Notes under the pieces: model-generated
Seen by the model: only the letters and a program-made list of their open reading frames with translations
Told to the model about the DNA's origin: nothing
Databases searched by the model: none
Source: Candidatus Hydrogenedentota bacterium
Lineage (GTDB): Bacteria; Hydrogenedentota; Hydrogenedentia; Hydrogenedentales; SLHB01
DNA: 64,000 nucleotides
Assembly (NCBI GenBank): GCA_029552745.1
Contig: JAKPDK010000152.1
Location: forward strand, 62,001-126,000
Direction: 5' to 3'
Shown: piece after piece, positions 4,786-45,925 of the stretch
How positions within the stretch are numbered: position 1 is the first letter of the stretch
How the letters are laid out: each line of letters starts with the position of its first letter
Program-made: the position numbers and the translations under genes

Positions 4786-5544
4786 ATGAATCCTGAAGAA
4801 TACCGCATTATGTTTGAGCTCGAGGACCAACACGCGTGGTATGTTGGTTTGCGGAAGATGGTCGCCTTGTCCATGCAAAAAGCAAAACCCTCTTTTTGTT
4901 TTGAAACGTGTTCTTCTCAATCCTGTCGCGTTCTCGATGTTGGTTGTGGCACGGGAGCAACCCTTGTTTTCTTGAGACAGTTCGCAGTACCTTTTGGAAT
5001 AGATATATCCGAGCAGGCTGTTCGTTTTTGTCGGTCGCGATGCGAAGATCGAACTGCTGTTGGATCCGCTTTGGCTTTGCCTTTCCCAGACGAGTCGTTT
5101 AACGGGGCTTTCAGTCTAGATGTACTGTGCCACAAGGCAGTGACAGACAAGATTCAGCCGTTAAAGGAGGTGTTTCGTATATTACGCCCTGGCGGCGTAT
5201 TTGTTCTCAACCTTCCTGCTTTTCAGTGGCTGTATTCCTCGCACGACATAAATGTCCACACAGATCGGCGTTTCAGCCGCCCCGAAGTGGAACAAATGTT
5301 AAGACAAAATGGGTTCTCGATTCTTTATACGACCTATTGGAATACCCTGATTCTGCCTGCACTTCTCGGCGTTCGTTTGTGGCGCAAAATCGCTCCATCA
5401 CGGCAAAGTGATGTCGCATTCAGCTCAGGACCTCTTGCAACAAGGGTACTGAGCCTATCACTTTCCTTCGAACGTCTTTTGCTGCGTTGGGTGAGATTTC
5501 CCTTTGGCTTGTCTATCCTGGTCGTCGCGCAGAAGCCTGCCTAG
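4786..5544 (+). CDS. Class I SAM-dependent methyltransferase
   Basis: A 252-residue methyltransferase with a Rossmann SAM-binding domain: motif I is VLDVGCGTG (about 46-54), followed by GIDISEQAV (ribose-binding acid) and ALPFPDESFNGAFSLDVL (motif IV region), then LRPGGVFVLNLPAF. This layout is that of Methyltransf_11/UbiE-like small-molecule enzymes. I prefer the ATG at 4786 because MNPEEYRIMFELEDQHAWY matches the usual N-terminus of this family; a TTG at 4777 is in frame. It lies 50 bases after the DegT gene on the same strand, so its substrate may be the same sugar or lipid intermediate, which is inference. Confidence 0.8.
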   Translation: MNPEEYRIMFELEDQHAWYVGLRKMVALSMQKAKPSFCFETCSSQSCRVLDVGCGTGATLVFLRQFAVPFGIDISEQAVRFCRSRCEDRTAVGSALALPFPDESFNGAFSLDVLCHKAVTDKIQPLKEVFRILRPGGVFVLNLPAFQWLYSSHDINVHTDRRFSRPEVEQMLRQNGFSILYTTYWNTLILPALLGVRLWRKIAPSRQSDVAFSSGPLATRVLSLSLSFERLLLRWVRFPFGLSILVVAQKPA

Positions 5545-5557
5545 ACTAGAAGGAAGA

Positions 5558-6730
5558 TCAGCCTTCTTCTTGCTGTAATCGTTTGCGAGCTTCGCCATGG
5601 AAGAGGTCATGGGCTTCCCTCAGGAGTTTTGGGATAATCTCTTTGTGCGGGGAATTTTGCAAACACGTCGAAAGGTCCAGTTCGTCCAGTTTGTCGGCTT
5701 TGTTTCCGGGAAACCAATGGCCGCCGTTACCCAGAAGGTTGTACCGCATTTTCGCGAAATCTAGCATATCGAAAGCAAGTGCAAAATTCCGCAGACGAAG
5801 TATCCACGGAATGTTGACTTCTCCCGGCGTCTCGTACCATTCGGGAAGTCCTTCGTGCCAGGTTCTCACCCATTCACGACCCAAAACCTTTTCCATCTCC
5901 GCTTGCAGGCGTTCCAGTATGGGCTTTATGATCTCAGCCGCTTGGTCACTTTTTTCGGCAGTCTCTATGTGGATGTCGAAATCCTCTGGTTTGGCTACGC
6001 CGCAGCTTAGCGTGTGCACTTCCGGGTGTGTTAGGCAGAAAAGGCCATTAAAAACCAAGGGATGCAAGGGTGCGGTTAATTTTGTGAATTTAGGGCTCGG
6101 TTGAAACAATAAGCCCCCTTTGTCGTTGGGACTAATAATGAATACCCCCATATCTCGCCGATGCGCTTCTTCAATTGCTGGCCAGTTGTCTTGGAAGATG
6201 TAATAATAGTGCAAATTGACATAGTCGAATTCGCCGGTCTTGATGGCCTTGAGGATTGTAGAACAGTGTCCGTGTGTAGAAAAGCCGACGAAACGGATTC
6301 GCCCTTCTTTCTGATAGGTTCTAACTTGATCCAGGCAGTGCAAGGCATGTTCAAGGCATTCGTCGTTATTGATGCCATGAAAAGCAAATAAGTCAAGATA
6401 CTCCACCTTGAGGAGTCGCATAGACAATTCAAAAGTCTCTCGAAAACGGTTTATGTCCTCCATGCCGCCGATTTTTGTCTGCACAATGATCTTGTCTCGG
6501 GGCAATGTTGGCAGGATTTTCCCAAGTTGCTGTTCACTTGTGCCATAGCCTCGTGCGGTTTCGAAATGGTTTATCCCTAATTCGTAAGCACGGCGAACAC
6601 ATGCCTCCAGGTTCTTTTGACTTGCCTCGGAAACGGGGTCATCCGATTTCCAAGACTGCTGAAAACGCATGCCTCCACAGCTAATCACGGGAATGTTAAG
6701 ATTTGTTCTCCCAAAGCGTCTGTATTTCAT
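5558..6730 (-). CDS. Aldo/keto reductase, catalytic Asp replaced by Glu
   Basis: A 390-residue aldo/keto reductase (NADPH-dependent carbonyl reduction, TIM barrel). The N-terminus MKYRRFGRTNLNIPVISCGGM, the ETARGYGTSE region, QTKIGG and FAFHGIN mark the catalytic tetrad positions. At the usual Asp of 'DTAxxYG' this protein has Glu. The C-terminal 100 residues (to EARKRLQQEEG) form the extension seen in longer AKRs of environmental bacteria, but the ferredoxin-like cysteines of some of them are missing. The start at 6730 is preceded by GAAGGA on the minus strand; an upstream in-frame start at 6781 lacks this. It follows the ABC exporter operon by 68 bases on the same strand and may be its last gene. 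Confidence 0.8.
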   Translation of the reverse strand: MKYRRFGRTNLNIPVISCGGMRFQQSWKSDDPVSEASQKNLEACVRRAYELGINHFETARGYGTSEQQLGKILPTLPRDKIIVQTKIGGMEDINRFRETFELSMRLLKVEYLDLFAFHGINNDECLEHALHCLDQVRTYQKEGRIRFVGFSTHGHCSTILKAIKTGEFDYVNLHYYYIFQDNWPAIEEAHRRDMGVFIISPNDKGGLLFQPSPKFTKLTAPLHPLVFNGLFCLTHPEVHTLSCGVAKPEDFDIHIETAEKSDQAAEIIKPILERLQAEMEKVLGREWVRTWHEGLPEWYETPGEVNIPWILRLRNFALAFDMLDFAKMRYNLLGNGGHWFPGNKADKLDELDLSTCLQNSPHKEIIPKLLREAHDLFHGEARKRLQQEEG

Positions 6731-6798
6731 GTGCGTCAGTCCTTCTTTCTGAGGTCTCAACGCTTTGCGCTTGCAAAGCATTTGTTTATTTTGATGTT

Positions 6799-8679
6799 TT
6801 ATGTCCGCATCGCATTATTATGAAAGGAATATTGTAGCTGATACAAAGTGGCATACAAACCACCGGCATTAAGTAATTCGTTGTGAGTGCCTATTTCACG
6901 AATTTCTCCATGATGCAAGACGATGATTTTGTCCGCGTGGCGAACAGTAGACAGACGATGTGCGATAACAATACTTGTGCGGTTTAGCATGAGTTTTTTG
7001 ATGGCATCTTGTATGAGTTGTTCCGTCTCTGTATCCACATTAGACGTAGCTTCGTCGAGAACCAACACGTCTGGGTTGTACGCTAATGCACGCGCGAAAG
7101 CAACAAGTTGTCTCTGTCCATTGGACAGTTTGCAGCCACGCTCACCCACCGGGTAGTCATAGCCTTTGGGAAGCCGTTCCAGAAACGTATGTACGTTAAC
7201 GTATCGAGCATATTGGCAAAGTTCTTCTTGGGACATATTTGGTGAACCAAACTTTATGTTTTCCGCGACAGAACCTGAGAAGAGAAACGTATCCTGTAGT
7301 ACCAGACCTATTGCCTGACGCAAGGACGCCCTCGTATATTCGCGGATATCTTTGCCGTTTATCCGGATTAGCCCTCGTTGCGGGTCATAGAATCGGCACA
7401 AAAGGTTCGCAATGGTAGACTTTCCAGCACCTGTGTATCCTACGATGGCGACGTGCTCTCCCGGAGCTACCGTGAAACTCACGTCTTTCAAAACCCACTG
7501 GTCTTCTTCATAAGCAAACCAAACGTGTTCAAACTCGATAGATACGGCTGGACGGACGAGAGGCACTGATTTCTCGATATCGGGCTCTTCAACAGGTGTA
7601 TCCAGGAGCGAAAATATCCTTTCCGATGATGCCATTGCCTCTAGCAAGGTGTTATAGCGGTCTGCCAGACCTCGAATGGGACCATAAACACGGTCTGCCC
7701 ATTGGATGTAAGCAAACATTGCTCCCAGCGAAACTCCTTGGGTTGAGTCAGGATTTACGTGGAGTATCTTGAAACCTATGTAAAGAACAATTAGTCCTAT
7801 TGATAAACTACTTAGAAACTCGATACTGGGAAAGTAAAGAGCAAAATTTCTGATCTGACGAAACCATTCATCTCGATGTTCTGCGTTCCGTTGTGCATAC
7901 CGTTGGAACATCTTATCTTCTTGGGAAAATGCTTGGATGATTCGCATCCCTGATATGCTCTCTTGCATAAAGGCATTGAGATGGGCGATCTTCTTTGCGA
8001 TGTTGAGGTACGACTCCCGCGCATATTTTTTGAACAAGAGGCTGACCACGAAAACCAGAGGTACCGTACACAGCGCGATACACGCCAAAGCCCAATTAAC
8101 CCATATCATGAAAACCAGCACGACAAGGATGGTACTCACATCGCCGATAACCTGCACCAAGCCCGTGACGATCGTCTGTTGTATGCGTTCCACATCGTTT
8201 GTGAGACGTGTCATAAGCCTGCCAATGGGGTTCTTATCGAGGTAGCTTACTGGAAGTTTTTGAATATGTGTGAAGAGGGACATCCGCATATCAAACATGG
8301 TGCGCTGGCCGACGTAGGCGATTAAAAGAGAATGGACATAACGCACGCCTGCCTGCAGGACGAGCAGGATACAGATAATGCCCAGCAGTTCCAGAAGTCC
8401 CGTCTCGATGTCCTCCTGTTCTTCTGGTTTAGTTTCGAGGTTTGAGATTGCGGCGCCTGGCTGGGGGTGTTTTGCAGACTGGTTGATGTACCGGTCGATG
8501 GCACGCATGTTGAGCAGTGGGACAATGTTAGAGAGGACAGAGGCGAGCAATAATAATATGATTGCGTAAACCAAAAGGGCCCTATAGGGGCGCAAAAACA
8601 CCAACAAGCGTTGCAACAAGCTGCGGTCATAAGGCCGTTCTGTGACCTCATCTTCGATATGATAGCTCTGTGCCGTCAT
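6799..8679 (-). CDS. ABC exporter half-transporter, consensus ATPase subunit
   Basis: A 626-residue type IV (MsbA/LmrA-like) ABC exporter half: transmembrane domain about residues 25-355 with six helices, nucleotide-binding domain about 375-615. Walker A is GYTGAGKST, the Q-loop is VLQDTFLFSGS, Walker B is VLVLDEATSNVD with catalytic Glu, and the switch His is in IAHRLSTV. The signature motif is LSNGQ instead of LSGGQ. Its start overlaps the stop of the next half-transporter (ATGA), so the two are made together and very likely form a heterodimer. The changed signature here and the changed Walker B Glu in the partner would fall in the same, degenerate ATP site. Exported substrate unknown. Confidence 0.88.
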   Translation of the reverse strand: MTAQSYHIEDEVTERPYDRSLLQRLLVFLRPYRALLVYAIILLLLASVLSNIVPLLNMRAIDRYINQSAKHPQPGAAISNLETKPEEQEDIETGLLELLGIICILLVLQAGVRYVHSLLIAYVGQRTMFDMRMSLFTHIQKLPVSYLDKNPIGRLMTRLTNDVERIQQTIVTGLVQVIGDVSTILVVLVFMIWVNWALACIALCTVPLVFVVSLLFKKYARESYLNIAKKIAHLNAFMQESISGMRIIQAFSQEDKMFQRYAQRNAEHRDEWFRQIRNFALYFPSIEFLSSLSIGLIVLYIGFKILHVNPDSTQGVSLGAMFAYIQWADRVYGPIRGLADRYNTLLEAMASSERIFSLLDTPVEEPDIEKSVPLVRPAVSIEFEHVWFAYEEDQWVLKDVSFTVAPGEHVAIVGYTGAGKSTIANLLCRFYDPQRGLIRINGKDIREYTRASLRQAIGLVLQDTFLFSGSVAENIKFGSPNMSQEELCQYARYVNVHTFLERLPKGYDYPVGERGCKLSNGQRQLVAFARALAYNPDVLVLDEATSNVDTETEQLIQDAIKKLMLNRTSIVIAHRLSTVRHADKIIVLHHGEIREIGTHNELLNAGGLYATLYQLQYSFHNNAMRT

Positions 8680-25706: not shown

Positions 25707-26609
25707 ATGAGAAGGCTATATCGTAGTGCTGCGACGATGGTGGGGCGCGATAAAGGTTTTACGCTTATTGAGTTGCTGGTGGTCATTGCGATTATTTCGA
25801 TTTTAGCCGCATTGCTGTTACCTGCTTTAAGCAGAGCACGCGCACAGGCAAGGTCGGCGCAATGCATCAGCAACCTTCGACAGTTGTATTTTGCCAATGT
25901 GATGTTCGCCAGCGAGCATAAAGGGCATTATTGTCCTGGGGCTCCTGATATGTACTGGGGCGGAGACAACTGCACCCGGTGGCACGGAAAACGAAAAATC
26001 ATAAGTGGTAGTGGTTGGAGTGCCGTCTACAGTGATTATGATCCCAACGATGGACCGCTGGCAGAATACCTGCCTGACGGAAGGGTGAAAGAATGTCCGG
26101 AGTTCACTATGTACCGTAGACAGGGCGAAGTCGCCAGTGCCTACGAGTCTGGCGCCGGGGGATATGGTTACAACTATGTGTATGTCGGAGGTGCGCAACA
26201 TATGTATCCTTGGTGGGACACCCAAGCGTATACGGTCACCGCGCTGGATTCCAGGATATTTGAGCCCTCGAGAACCATTATGTTTGCGGATGCGGCTTTT
26301 CCCACCTCGGAAGGACTCATCGAGAATGGGGAATTGGTCCCACCGTACTACCCCAATCCACAGAACCCCACGGGCGATCCCAATCATCCCACCGACCCGG
26401 GATTTCCAGGAAGTCCTAGTATGCATTTTCGTCATTTTGGACGGGTGAATGTGATCTGGTGTGATGGGCATGCCTCTAGTGAAGCATGGGGGTGGACGCA
26501 CCAGTTGTCCAATTGGTATGGTGGTAACAACTATCAGGGGTTCGGTTGGTTTGGTCCTAAGAACAATTCCCTGTTTTATACTGGTCCGAAAACCGATTTT
26601 GCGCCTTAA
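25707..26609 (+). CDS. Prepilin-type N-terminus, H-X9-DG family protein
   Basis: A 300-residue pseudopilin-like secreted protein. It has a short basic leader ending in G, then [20 protein letters not shown], the type IV prepilin cleavage and helix motif (cleavage expected between G17 and F18, methylation afterwards). The signature near the C-terminus, [12 protein letters not shown], is exactly the H-X9-DG motif used to define this prepilin-processing-associated family, which is expanded in Planctomycetes, Verrucomicrobia and Lentisphaerae. Function of the family is unknown; a role in a type II secretion-like or surface system is inferred. AAAGG lies upstream of the ATG. Transcription starts at 25328 and passes through the cobalamin riboswitch. 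Its stop shares TTAA with the convergent gene. Confidence 0.88.
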
Positions 26610-29461
26610 TGGGCAGAAGAGTCTGGTAAATCGGGTGTAATAAGAACCAGGGTACCTGTGGGTATTCTAGAATAAGCGGTTATGGCATCACTGTTTCTTA
26701 ACCTGATGCATCCGTGAGATGCCGGGGTGCCTATAAGCTCTTCGCCATTGGTCCCGTGTATGTAGATTTGGCGGCGATACGTATCCACGTCGCCGCCTTT
26801 ATTTTTACCAGACTCTTCGCCGGTTAGAAACAATACTCTTGTTAAAACGAGATCCTCGACAACCGATTGACCGGGCTGCCAGACCTCACAGGTTGGTTTT
26901 CCTGCACGAAACACCCTACCCCAAGGTTCCCCTTCTCCCGCTTTGGAACAAACAGAATGCCAGCCAATGGGGGTTTGATTGCTGTTTAGTCGGTTTCCTG
27001 TGCCAGCGGCTGCAGTGCTGCACGGTGTTTCCCACAAAACCCATTGGTCATTTATGAGTCTGAGTTTTTGTTCCTCCACTGATACCCAAACGGCGAGTTT
27101 TGTTCCTACCCTTTCCTGCCAACCATATTTTTTCAGAAGGTCGGCTTCCCATTCGGTCAAGGTTCGCACGGCTTGCTGAAGTTCCTCCTGGATAAGCACC
27201 GGTATTGATAACGAAGGTTCTGTTACTACAGGGAATCCCGGTGGAACCCGCAGAATGAATCCGTTGGTCGAGTCGTAATTCACGCTAATGAACCCAAAAG
27301 GAAACGGCATTTTTAGGGAAAACGCAGTTAAGTTTTGTGGAACGTGAGGTGAAAACTTGATAGATTTCCACCCGGGTTCGTGTGGGGTGATTCCAACTAA
27401 CCTTTCGGCGATAAGAAATATTGGGCTACTGCTCCAGGGGTGACACCAGCTCGTATTCCATTTTTGCTCAGGTCCCCACACCTCCATGCAGGTTGTCGCG
27501 CCACTCCGCAGCATCTCCACCCATGAGTGTTCATCGGTCGACGTGAGCAAATCAAATCCCAGTCCTGCTGCACCATGTTCATAACACGCCTCAATGACGA
27601 AAGGTGCAATCAAGGGCCCACAAGAAAGGCGTTTTTGTCGTATAAAATCTAAAATGTGACTTCTTTTGTCCTCGGGTACCATTCCAAAAGCCAACGGTAA
27701 AGCATTGGCGTGCAGAGAAGCATGCGATGAACCAGGGGCATCTATGTAAAGTCTTTTTTCCGGATCGTAGTTCTTTCGATTGAAAACATTGCGTACTTGC
27801 TCTGCCTTGGAAAGGTATTCCTGCGCTTGCAGCTCTAGGTTAAATTCCTTGCACAATTTCCCGGCCGTGGATAAGGACGCGTAATAATAAGCATTCAGCA
27901 CCGTGTTTTCTCGGGTCTTGGCATATTCATAATCGTAGTCATCACGTAAATTAGCAGGCCAATCGACAAGCACCCATTTCTCAGTTAGGCCAGACAGTAA
28001 TCCGTCGGCAGATTCATAGTTCTTGAAATAACCAAAAAGTTCGGGAAAACCATCCGCGGCCATTTTTTGGACAAAATAGCGGTCGCCCGTGTAGCGGTAA
28101 TAGTTGGCAAGCATCAAGGGCCAAAGGAGGGAATATTCGGCGATTTCTTGGTGAAAACTACCGGGAGCTACTGCCATCATCCCTGGACAAATGCGTTGAG
28201 AGTACCGGAAGTCCTGAAGCGTTTTTTGGGTAAGACACGGGTCTCCCGTGAGGATTAAGTGAGACCGACTCGTAATGAAAGCGTCGCCAAGATAGGGACC
28301 TTTTTCTCGTGTCGGACAGTCTATAAAAACTCCTTGAGCGCCAAAACGAACGCCGTTCTTGCAAAGCTCCCAAATTGCGGTCAGCTTCTCGTCAGATGAA
28401 GCAAAGAATGAAGAATCGGAGTGAAAAGGATGATGCCGCACCTCAACCCACACCCCAGGCATCTCAGGACTATTCAAAACTTCCACATAGCGGAATCCCT
28501 TGTAGTCATAGAACTCAACCAGGTCTTCTTCTCCAGAAAGAATAACTTGTTCGCGATATTCGCATTTTGCGCGTAAAGAGTATCTGGCTGTACCATCCGC
28601 GTTTAGTTCTTCCGCATGTCTTATCTCAATGATGTGTCCTGCAGGCCCTAAAACTTTAACTCGTGTTGAACCGACTAGCTCCGTACCAAAGTCGAATAGA
28701 TAGTTGCCCGGCGCAATTTCTTTTATGACTGTAGGAGTAGCGCGAAGAACCTGCAATGGGGGAGTGACTGAACGAACAAAAACATGGTCTTGTCGGTCTA
28801 CCAAAGGGTTAAGCCAAGACGAGTCGTCAAAACCGGGTGAGCGCCATCCGATGGGGATCTCGCGCATGTCGATATCTTCCAAAAATTGAGTTTGATATCC
28901 GGTAGTTCGAGAGGAGAAATAGGCCGTAGAACGCCGGCATTTCCAGGATTCGTCCGTGACTATTCGTTGGTTCGTTCCGTCTTCAAACGCGATATCCAGA
29001 AGGGCAATGAGTCCCGACCGATTATCCGCACTGTTCCATACACGGTTTCGAAGTCCCTGGTAATACACATGAGCAGCCAAGCAGTTCGTGCCTGTAAGAA
29101 GTTCGGAAGTTATGTCCAATGTGTAAAAAGGATGCGCGAAGGGGTACGCAGGGGCAGGTCCCTGAAACACATATGCTCCGTTGACATAAAAACGAACGTA
29201 ATCATCTGCTGTGACATGAAGTTTAGCTCGAACAGGCTTCTTGGACAACACAAACTCTTTTCGGAAGTAGGTATGAACATTTTGAGGGCCGGTGGAGTTC
29301 GGCAGCTCGTCTTTGCCTTTTTTGAAGTAATCTATTACCGGGATATTTCGAAATATGGGATCTCGAATCCATACTGCCTCATCCAAGACTTCTCCGACAC
29401 ATGGAAAACAAAACAAGACACCTATCCCAAGGAGTAAAATAATGAACAAATAAAGTGGCAC
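26606..29461 (-). CDS. GH78 alpha-L-rhamnosidase-like/L,D-transpeptidase fusion
   Basis: A 951-residue exported protein with a signal peptide (about 1-23). Residues about 60-340 match the N-terminal beta domains of bacterial alpha-L-rhamnosidases, and 350-770 the (alpha/alpha)6 catalytic domain and C-terminal beta domain: [14 protein letters not shown] (391 region) is a variant of the family's catalytic loop, and [10 protein letters not shown] (656 region) carries the second conserved Glu. After a helical linker (about 755-785), residues 788-945 form a YkuD L,D-transpeptidase domain with H902 (IHGTNG) and the catalytic motif SHGCIRLRN, Cys918. Reading frame is unbroken. The start is GTG with AGGTGAT upstream. 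The enzyme half should cleave rhamnosides; the second half should crosslink or modify peptidoglycan, or tether the protein to it. Confidence 0.88.
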
Positions 29462-43276: not shown

Positions 43277-45925
43277 ATGAACCGTCATGCTTTGATCATT
43301 CTAATTACAGCCTGCCTTATGTTGGAACAGCTTGGTTGGAGCGAGTCAGAACAAAGGATCCCCGCAATGACTGAAGCAAAGATTACGAAAACCGGGAAGA
43401 GTCCATATGCTTTGTTAGATGGGGTAGGGATAAACCACGTATCGATTACAGGGGGTTTTTGGAAAGCCAAGAGAGACGTCAATCGATTACAAACCATACC
43501 CCACCAGTACAATGAATGTGAGCGGACCGGGCGTATCGACAATTTTCGCCGAGCCGCCGGACGCGCCACCCTTCACCCTTATGTGAGTTACTCCGGGAAA
43601 TGGGGTATCTCGGTGAAGCAGTCAGGCCATCCCATATTTTCAGGTCTTTCTAACCCGATATATCTTGTCAGTACAGGTGTACCCACGCATGACGAATGTT
43701 GTTACTGGGATGACCCGGATACTATTAACGGCGTTTGGTTGGCGGATTGGGAAAAACCGGGCAAGAAGGTTGTCTGTGCGGAATACACTCATGGCAAGGG
43801 CAAAGTCATCGTTGTTGGGACGGGCGCTTATTTTTGGTTTGATGAAGGCAAACTGAACTCTTATCGCCCCAATTTGGAGAAATTTACCCAGAATATTTTG
43901 AACTATTTAGGGGAAGGTCCTGTTGCCTTTCTTGTCGGATCAGAGAAAGCCGCCGAGCTGCCAGCAGAACAAAGGGCTGCTTGGGAATGGTTGCAAGCAA
44001 AGCGACAAAGTGAACGTGTTCCAATTGAAAGCGTTAACGCCACTTCCGATTGCCTTCGACGTTTCCGTGTGCTTTGGTGGCACCTTTCAGATATTCCTGA
44101 GATCCCTCAGCTTGCTAGAACAAACGAGTTCACAAAGACGGTTCGCGCCTTTCTCAAATCCGGTGGCGGGCTTTTTCTCAGCGGTTTTGCTCCTCAATAC
44201 CTCACAGTTTTGGGCATAGAGCCGACGCCGCCAAGCACTATTCGGCAAGTACCTAAGGAAGGATTCCGCGGGATTTATTTCAATGATTCCGATGTGTACA
44301 AGTGGATGGAAGCGGCGGCTTGGAGTCTTGCCGCAGACCCGGATCCTGCTTTGGACGCTCAATTGGATGAGCTGATCGAACTGGTGGGCGCCGCGCAATG
44401 CGATGATGGTTATCTCAATACCTACTTTATGTTTGAGAATGCAGGCAAGCGTTGGACGGATTTGACTAACATGCACGAGTTGTACCTTGGGGGACACATG
44501 ATCCAAGCCGCCATCGCCCATCATCGGACGACAGGCAAAACCTCTTTTCTGAACATCGCTCAGAAATGGGCAGACCACGTCTGTGGGCGGTTTGGACCGG
44601 ATAAGCATGTCGGAGCGCCGGGACATCCCGAGGTGGAGATGGCTTTGGTGGAGCTCTATCGGGAGACAGGCGAACAAAAGTACTTGGATTTGGCTTGTTT
44701 TTTCATCGAGAATCGGGGAAAAGGAGTTCTGAACGGTTCAGAAAACCTGCAAGACCATCTTCCTATTCGTAAACAAACCTATGTAACGGGGCATGCAGTC
44801 CGCCAACTTTATCTTTGCGCTGGAGTTACGGATATTTATGCGGAAACCGGCGACAAATCACTTCTTGAGACTCTGGACAAGCAATATGCGGATTTTGTGA
44901 ACACCAAAATGTATTTTACGGGCGGGGCAGGTGCCCGTCACGAAGGTGAAGCGTTCGGTGAACCTTACGAGTTGCCAAATGATACGGCTTATGCGGAAAC
45001 GTGCGCGGCAATTGCATCCTTCATGTGGAACTGGAGAATGCTGCAAATTAGTGCAGATTCGCGTTTTGCAGACGAAATGGAACGGGCATTATACAACGGA
45101 ATTCTGAGCGGGATGTCTTTGGATGGCAAAGAGTATTTCTATGTGAATCCGTTGATGAACCGAGGCGATCACAGAAGAACGACTAAACATTTTGACGGAT
45201 GCGCTTGTTGTCCGCCAAATCTTGCACGGACTTTTGCTGCTCTTCCGGGCTATATCTATGGTGTCTCTAAGGACGGGCAGCTGTATGTGCATCAGTACGT
45301 ACAATCGACGAGTGACGTCGATCTCGCAGGCGTACATGTCCGGATTATTCAGGACACCCAATACCCGTGGGACGGCAAAGTTGTTCTGCACCTATCTATG
45401 TCCACCCCGCAACGCTTTGATTTGTTTTTACGCCGTCCTGCTTGGGCAGATACGATGACTGTTCGGGTCAACGGGGAAAAAACTCGCCCCCCGAAACTTG
45501 TCCGCGGATATGTCCGTATTTCAAACTTGTGGAAGAACAGGGATACTGTGGAAGTAGAGTTTCCTATGGAAGTTGTTCGCTTGACTGCTGATCCGCGGGT
45601 AGCTAGTGACCTCGGAAGAGTTGCGATTAGACGAGGTCCTATCGTTTACTGTGTGGAACAAGCTGACCAGAAAGAGATAGACTTGAATAGGGTCGTTATC
45701 CCGAAATCTCCGTGCTTCACCTTCCTGTATCGAGAAGATTTGCTTGGTGGGGTAGGTGTGATCCAATTTGACGCCTTGTACTTTCCGGAAGAGCACCCGC
45801 TGTATCGTCCTTTTAAAACTGCAACCAAGGGCGATCTGGTACGGATTCAAGCTGTTCCCTACTTCTCGTGGGCAAATCGTGATCCGGGTATGATGCTCGT
45901 TTGGTTGCCTCAGGCTTGTTACTGA
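43277..45925 (+). CDS. GH127 beta-L-arabinofuranosidase-like enzyme with inserted domain
   Basis: An 882-residue exported glycosidase (signal peptide about 1-22). Its GH127 (DUF1680) parts are SITGGFW...RIDNFRRAAG (about 55-95), resuming at GIYFNDSDVYKW (333 onward) through the (alpha/alpha)6 barrel and C-terminal beta domains. E574-x-C576 and C644-C645 (in CACCPPN) match the Glu and Cys residues that hold the catalytic zinc thiolate of HypBA1. Between them and the N-terminus, residues about 97-326 are an extra domain not found in ordinary GH127 proteins, resembling the GATase-like DUF4960 domain but with its halves in the opposite order. AAAGGTGA precedes the ATG. Expected role: removing arabinofuranose from polysaccharides or glycoproteins in the periplasm. 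Confidence 0.87.
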   Translation: MNRHALIILITACLMLEQLGWSESEQRIPAMTEAKITKTGKSPYALLDGVGINHVSITGGFWKAKRDVNRLQTIPHQYNECERTGRIDNFRRAAGRATLHPYVSYSGKWGISVKQSGHPIFSGLSNPIYLVSTGVPTHDECCYWDDPDTINGVWLADWEKPGKKVVCAEYTHGKGKVIVVGTGAYFWFDEGKLNSYRPNLEKFTQNILNYLGEGPVAFLVGSEKAAELPAEQRAAWEWLQAKRQSERVPIESVNATSDCLRRFRVLWWHLSDIPEIPQLARTNEFTKTVRAFLKSGGGLFLSGFAPQYLTVLGIEPTPPSTIRQVPKEGFRGIYFNDSDVYKWMEAAAWSLAADPDPALDAQLDELIELVGAAQCDDGYLNTYFMFENAGKRWTDLTNMHELYLGGHMIQAAIAHHRTTGKTSFLNIAQKWADHVCGRFGPDKHVGAPGHPEVEMALVELYRETGEQKYLDLACFFIENRGKGVLNGSENLQDHLPIRKQTYVTGHAVRQLYLCAGVTDIYAETGDKSLLETLDKQYADFVNTKMYFTGGAGARHEGEAFGEPYELPNDTAYAETCAAIASFMWNWRMLQISADSRFADEMERALYNGILSGMSLDGKEYFYVNPLMNRGDHRRTTKHFDGCACCPPNLARTFAALPGYIYGVSKDGQLYVHQYVQSTSDVDLAGVHVRIIQDTQYPWDGKVVLHLSMSTPQRFDLFLRRPAWADTMTVRVNGEKTRPPKLVRGYVRISNLWKNRDTVEVEFPMEVVRLTADPRVASDLGRVAIRRGPIVYCVEQADQKEIDLNRVVIPKSPCFTFLYREDLLGGVGVIQFDALYFPEEHPLYRPFKTATKGDLVRIQAVPYFSWANRDPGMMLVWLPQACY

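Follow-up and report, generated by a model that had tools for sequence, protein, structure and literature searches.

Several GH127 enzymes have been solved, including HypBA1, Ara127N (4qjy) and BT3674 (6ex6), and the roles of Cys417 and Glu322 of HypBA1 have been described (PMC8106489). The protein reported here resembles these enzymes in its three Pfam domains, the catalytic E/E/C/C/C set and three active-site histidines, but the three solved proteins, like 42 aligned relatives, lack its 229-residue insertion. The other described system close to this locus is the DUF4960 domain, recently recognised as a levan-binding domain. The DUF4960 protein Lev-Lev5 binds levan with an apparent affinity of 10-20 nM and has been proposed as a new CBM (PMC10076258). 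The C-terminal DUF4960 domain of BT1761, a levan-binding SGBP, is the ThuA-like levan-binding domain of the levan utilisome, and both W297 and W359 are needed for levan binding (PMC7618045). The inserted domain described below has the complete set of sequence blocks of the BT1761 domain, but its halves are reversed, it is nested in another domain, and the loop corresponding to that of W297 is opened and lacks the tryptophan.

Both features of this arrangement have precedents. In the GH5 enzyme MtGlu5, a CBM29-like module is likewise inserted within the catalytic domain and raises substrate affinity; its fold and enzyme family are different, and its abstract reports no permutation (PMC9063844). 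The binding-module families CBM36 and CBM60 are likewise related by circular permutation, but they have another fold, and no single copy nested in another domain is involved (Montanier 2010, cited in PMC4725902). Circularly permuted inserted domains are also known among RNAP insertional domains (mentioned in PMC13114784), which limits the surprise of the present case. None of the papers searched describes a GH127 with a permuted insertion or circular permutation. The novelty is therefore one of combination: binding-domain insertion and circular permutation are each known, and no other copy of the two together was found. The locus offers a clean natural case of both, which are mostly encountered apart, in a carbohydrate-active enzyme, and extends DUF4960 to a predicted beta-L-arabinofuranosidase, an enzyme that would release arabinose from glycans.

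The window, a stretch of 64,000 nucleotides from a Candidatus Hydrogenedentota genome, contained a gene at 43277..45925 (plus strand, as are all features of the gene given below) encoding 882 amino acids, identified from the ORF list and Pfam matches as an apparently intact GH127, predicted to be a beta-L-arabinofuranosidase, with an inserted permuted DUF4960. It was a single open frame without stops in a 410-kb contig of a multi-contig draft genome. A hydrophobic helix at residues 3-18 (43277..43330), also helical in the AlphaFold2 model, was a predicted export signal, in which ITAC with C13 is a possible lipobox. The GH127 N-terminal segment (residues 47-96; 43415..43564) ended in NFRRAAGR and was aligned with residues 7-55 of 6ex6 and with 42 GH127s, with pLDDT above 90 over most of its length. 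After the insertion, the (alpha/alpha)6 catalytic domain resumed at residues 326-657 (44252..45247), and the Pfam match to this domain spanned residues 330-657 (PF07944, profile 50-375, E 2e-107). It was followed by the middle beta-sandwich domain (residues 668-764; 45278..45568; PF20736, E 7e-24) and the C-terminal domain (residues 768-878; 45578..45910; PF20737, E 9e-22).

A full-length AlphaFold2 model, built with 42 GH127 homologues in the alignment, had pLDDT above 90 over most of the GH127 part, and Foldseek matched the modelled protein to solved GH127s (4qjy, E 5.6e-55). The score against the NCBIfam aceric acid hydrolase model (499 bits) was far below its cut-off of 950. The residues of the putative catalytic Zn-thiolate set (44948..45211), E558 (acid/base), E574, C576, C644 (nucleophile) and C645, were aligned with HypBA1 E322, E338, C340, C417 and C418, respectively, and were invariant in 43 aligned GH127 sequences. 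In addition, H400, H450 and H506 corresponded to the active-site histidines H142, H194 and H270 of HypBA1.

The stretch from N89 to K342 comprised 254 residues, as against 24-34 in the 42 aligned GH127s from many phyla. The insertion occupied about residues 97-325 (~229 residues), was in frame and interrupted the N-terminal part of the GH127 barrel. At this site the nearest GH127 (L075) reads NFRRAAGRLKADFQGIFFNDSDVYK, and the present protein reads NFRRAAGR, residues 97-325 and then PKEGFRGIYFNDSDVYK; alignment with GH127s of the same phylum left a clean gap from NFRRAAG to KEGFRG. The interrupted N-terminal barrel is a variation and concerns neither a catalytic nor a family-defining criterion of GH127. 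A preliminary description of this DNA had placed a domain at residues 97-326 inside a GH127 with its Zn-thiolate residues kept. The alignment with 42 GH127s put these boundaries right to within about a residue and, together with Pfam, bore out the nesting, and the comparison with HypBA1 agreed on the catalytic residues. Codon usage and GC of the insert matched the rest of the gene, with uniform composition, and no duplicated DNA, repeats or leftover DUF4960 halves were found around it.

Pfam found DUF4960 (PF16324) in the whole protein as two stretches. Part 1 of the insertion (residues 97-213; 43565..43915), searched alone, matched profile positions 124-250 (E 1.7e-10), the C-terminal half of DUF4960, and contained the motifs GHPIFSGL and EYTHGKGKVIVVGTGAYFW and the final helix NILNYL. 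Part 2 (residues 214-325; 43916..44251), also searched alone, matched positions 7-103 (E 4.2e-07), the N-terminal half, with the motifs VAFLVGSE, RVLWWH and GGGLFLSG; both halves scored above the cut-off. The solved BT1761 chain (PDB 8a9y/8aa0/8aa2) was likewise matched in two swapped pieces (E 1.3e-9), part 2 corresponding to chain residues 206-310. The original C- and N-terminal ends were joined through GEGP (residues 212-215; 43910..43921).

The order was examined by a rotation test with an HMM built from 56 ordinary DUF4960 domains and 200 shuffles as control. The natural order gave a best single match of 81.9 bits, which rose smoothly on rotation to one match of 170.8 bits (model positions 3-220) when the insert started at residue 216; the maximum among the shuffles was 1.7 bits. 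With the halves swapped back, the insert was aligned end to end with ordinary DUF4960 of the same phylum at about 30% identity. Half-domain models found the C-half followed by the N-half in the window only, and the N-half followed by the C-half in 56 listed loci, a few of which overlap the same gene, leaving about 55 other copies. A permuted-order model (A2) gave one match in the window (positions 2-221) and two matches, in the opposite order, in ordinary copies.

At the level of profile matches, the insert was thus confirmed as a complete DUF4960 domain with its halves in reverse order, because residues 97-213 match profile 124-250 and the second half matches 7-103; judged in this way, it counts as a permuted relative of DUF4960 rather than as an ordinary member of the family. 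The preliminary description had named DUF4960 and had given a shared order in ordinary members as a ground for refutation. The separate searches and the rise from 82 to 171 bits upheld both the name and the swap, and a shared order was excluded by the copies running the other way. That the swapped order might be an artefact, either of a chimeric assembly or of ordinary DUF4960 also occurring in this order, is exceedingly improbable: nothing in its favour was found beyond the genome being a multi-contig draft, and against it stand the opposite order of about 55 other copies, the uninterrupted frame in a 410-kb contig, the clean in-frame joints at both ends and the uniform composition. Tandem duplication of DUF4960 followed by loss of the outer halves is a plausible simple origin, of which no trace is left.

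The first reading had called the domain GATase-like, and as the name of a fold this suits the ThuA-like DUF4960 reported for BT1761 (PMC7618045). The position of the nucleophile elbow reads LFLSGFAP, without the catalytic Cys of class I glutamine amidotransferases, and therefore amidotransferase activity would not be expected of the insert. AlphaFold2 gave the insert a pLDDT of 33 when it was modelled by itself, and values mostly under 50 within the full-length model; the model was poor because the alignment contained no homologues of the insert. We infer from the matched blocks that the two halves would fold as one compact domain. It had also been suggested that permutation suits insertion because the ends of a permuted domain meet. 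This explains little: only about four residues (GEGP) link the original ends, which must therefore be close too, and insertion would also have been open to an unpermuted domain.

The insert was present in this genome only, and in none of the other genomes of the phylum (68 genomes examined). Close GH127s of the phylum, at about 45% identity, were without it. One close GH127 (L046:1267-3651, plus strand) has a C-terminal F5/8 type C domain, and several relatives in the phylum carry a C-terminal extension of similar length, absent from the present protein. A scan of GTDB contigs matched at least 587 GH127 relatives, the best 80 of which also lacked the insert; among the matches listed, the closest GH127 cores had about 50% identity and came from Chloroflexota, Planctomycetota, Armatimonadota and others. 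The search for GH127 proteins with the same insertion, proposed at the outset, returned none in the 42 aligned or other GH127s examined. Samples of Bacteroidota, Verrucomicrobiota, Chloroflexota, Planctomycetota and Armatimonadota contained DUF4960 in ordinary order only or not at all. Genome contigs scanned with the insert alone and viral contigs scanned with four queries gave no match, and plasmids contained no permuted copy and only one ordinary DUF4960, from Bacteroides. A weak match at L043 was rejected as chance, the protein being an aldolase/SDR protein. The permuted form is known from a single example and so offers no conservation in favour of the binding role proposed below. This rarity would suit a tolerated relic without function, or halves that are not packed together in one chain, as the homologous insertion was found nowhere else in the searched sets. 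Such a reading appears improbable, given that the domain lacks none of its parts, retains its core motifs and scores 171 bits after rotation, that the insert agrees with the gene in codon usage and GC, and that there are no stops.

The closest ordinary relative found was a Planctomycetota protein with the architecture DUF4960-LamG-GH32 (L237:2604-5486, minus strand), aligned with the insert at 46% identity in the C-half (L237 residues 142-247) and 36% in the N-half. It differs in its canonical order, its N-terminal position and its fructanase-like GH32 enzyme, and so allows a direct comparison. Its gene adjoins a second GH32 gene (5480-6877, minus strand), and this pair supports a fructan link of DUF4960 outside Bacteroidota. 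In a Bacteroidota protein (L243:1168-4740, minus strand), an ordinary DUF4960 lies N-terminal to a six-hairpin (MGH1/GH116-like) glycosidase. Further, about 20 genomes of the phylum encode proteins of ~1300 aa with an ordinary DUF4960-like N-terminal domain (L031:1312-5319, minus strand; L032, L033, L035-L042); in the three that were scanned, the middle domain was of the hydrazine synthase alpha type and an FGE-sulfatase domain stood at the C-terminus, and two of them had a weak cytochrome match. Another large DUF4960-bearing protein (L034:322-4614, minus strand, genome G006) was split by a TAG between the domain halves into ORFs of 261 aa and 1169 aa, which may reflect gene breakage, readthrough or an error in sequencing.

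The complete permuted DUF4960 is probably, in our assessment, a non-catalytic glycan-binding module beside the GH127 catalytic domain, for which GH5 MtGlu5 with its inserted CBM is a working precedent. The protein would be an exported GH127 beta-L-arabinofuranosidase with a Zn-activated cysteine nucleophile. In-frame insertion has placed the DUF4960, predicted to be ThuA/flavodoxin-like, after the N-terminal segment and ahead of the DSDVYK part of the catalytic barrel. The original DUF4960 ends are joined via GEGP, and the chain opens in the variable loop that separates the halves. Held rigidly beside the catalytic domain, the insert may present a glycan chain to the enzyme, and the opened loop, which in BT1761 is near the ligand site, would face the GH127 junction and bring bound glycan near the catalytic domain. 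If so, the locus would show how the open ends of a binding module can be relocated to bring its ligand face close to a catalytic domain.

Glycan binding by the insert, and which glycan, we infer by homology with the DUF4960 members above. The W297 loop of BT1761, located between the DUF4960 halves, is the very site where the chain is opened here; the equivalent loop reads PPSTIRQVP, without Trp, in the present protein and NAPSTWKEE, with Trp, in the GH32-linked relative. One alignment placed W144 opposite BT1761 W359, whereas another placed it opposite a Trp nearby. The putative ligand-contact residues of BT1761 were poorly kept in the insert in the alignments, and no GH32 was found in this genome. 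With no GH32, a W297 loop lacking Trp and a W359 match that depends on the alignment, levan is doubtful as the ligand and is one candidate only.

GATase-like domains play structural roles in other glycosidases, for example GH42. A permuted DUF4960 serving here in stability, oligomerisation or the rim of the active site, and not itself binding glycan, would account for the poorly kept contacts, the cut through the binding loop and the genome without GH32. This is a serious but rather unlikely alternative, as those DUF4960 members that have been solved or tested do bind glycan and ordinary DUF4960 occurs, in the manner of a binding module, on several different glycosidases. The glycan-binding reading might be extended to a natural ligand-gated glycosidase, in which sugar binding by the insert would be relayed to the active site of the GH127 by the two segments that anchor the insert. 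An engineered switch made by domain insertion is known from a xylose-stimulated xylanase chimera (PMC4896006); by this analogy, gating here is conceivable but most unlikely.

The neighbouring genes encode a DJ-1/PfpI protein, a xylose isomerase-like TIM barrel, an NAD-dependent epimerase, a PAS histidine kinase and a sulfatase, with a GH78-type rhamnosidase and a heparinase II/III-like protein about 10-15 kb away from the gene. These genes do not make up a polysaccharide utilisation locus, and therefore the context does not name the substrate. At 26606-29461 (minus strand), a 951-aa ORF encoded an alpha-L-rhamnosidase with GH78-type domains and, at its C-terminus, a YkuD L,D-transpeptidase domain. 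It is unusual for a glycosidase to be coupled to a domain that cross-links peptidoglycan.
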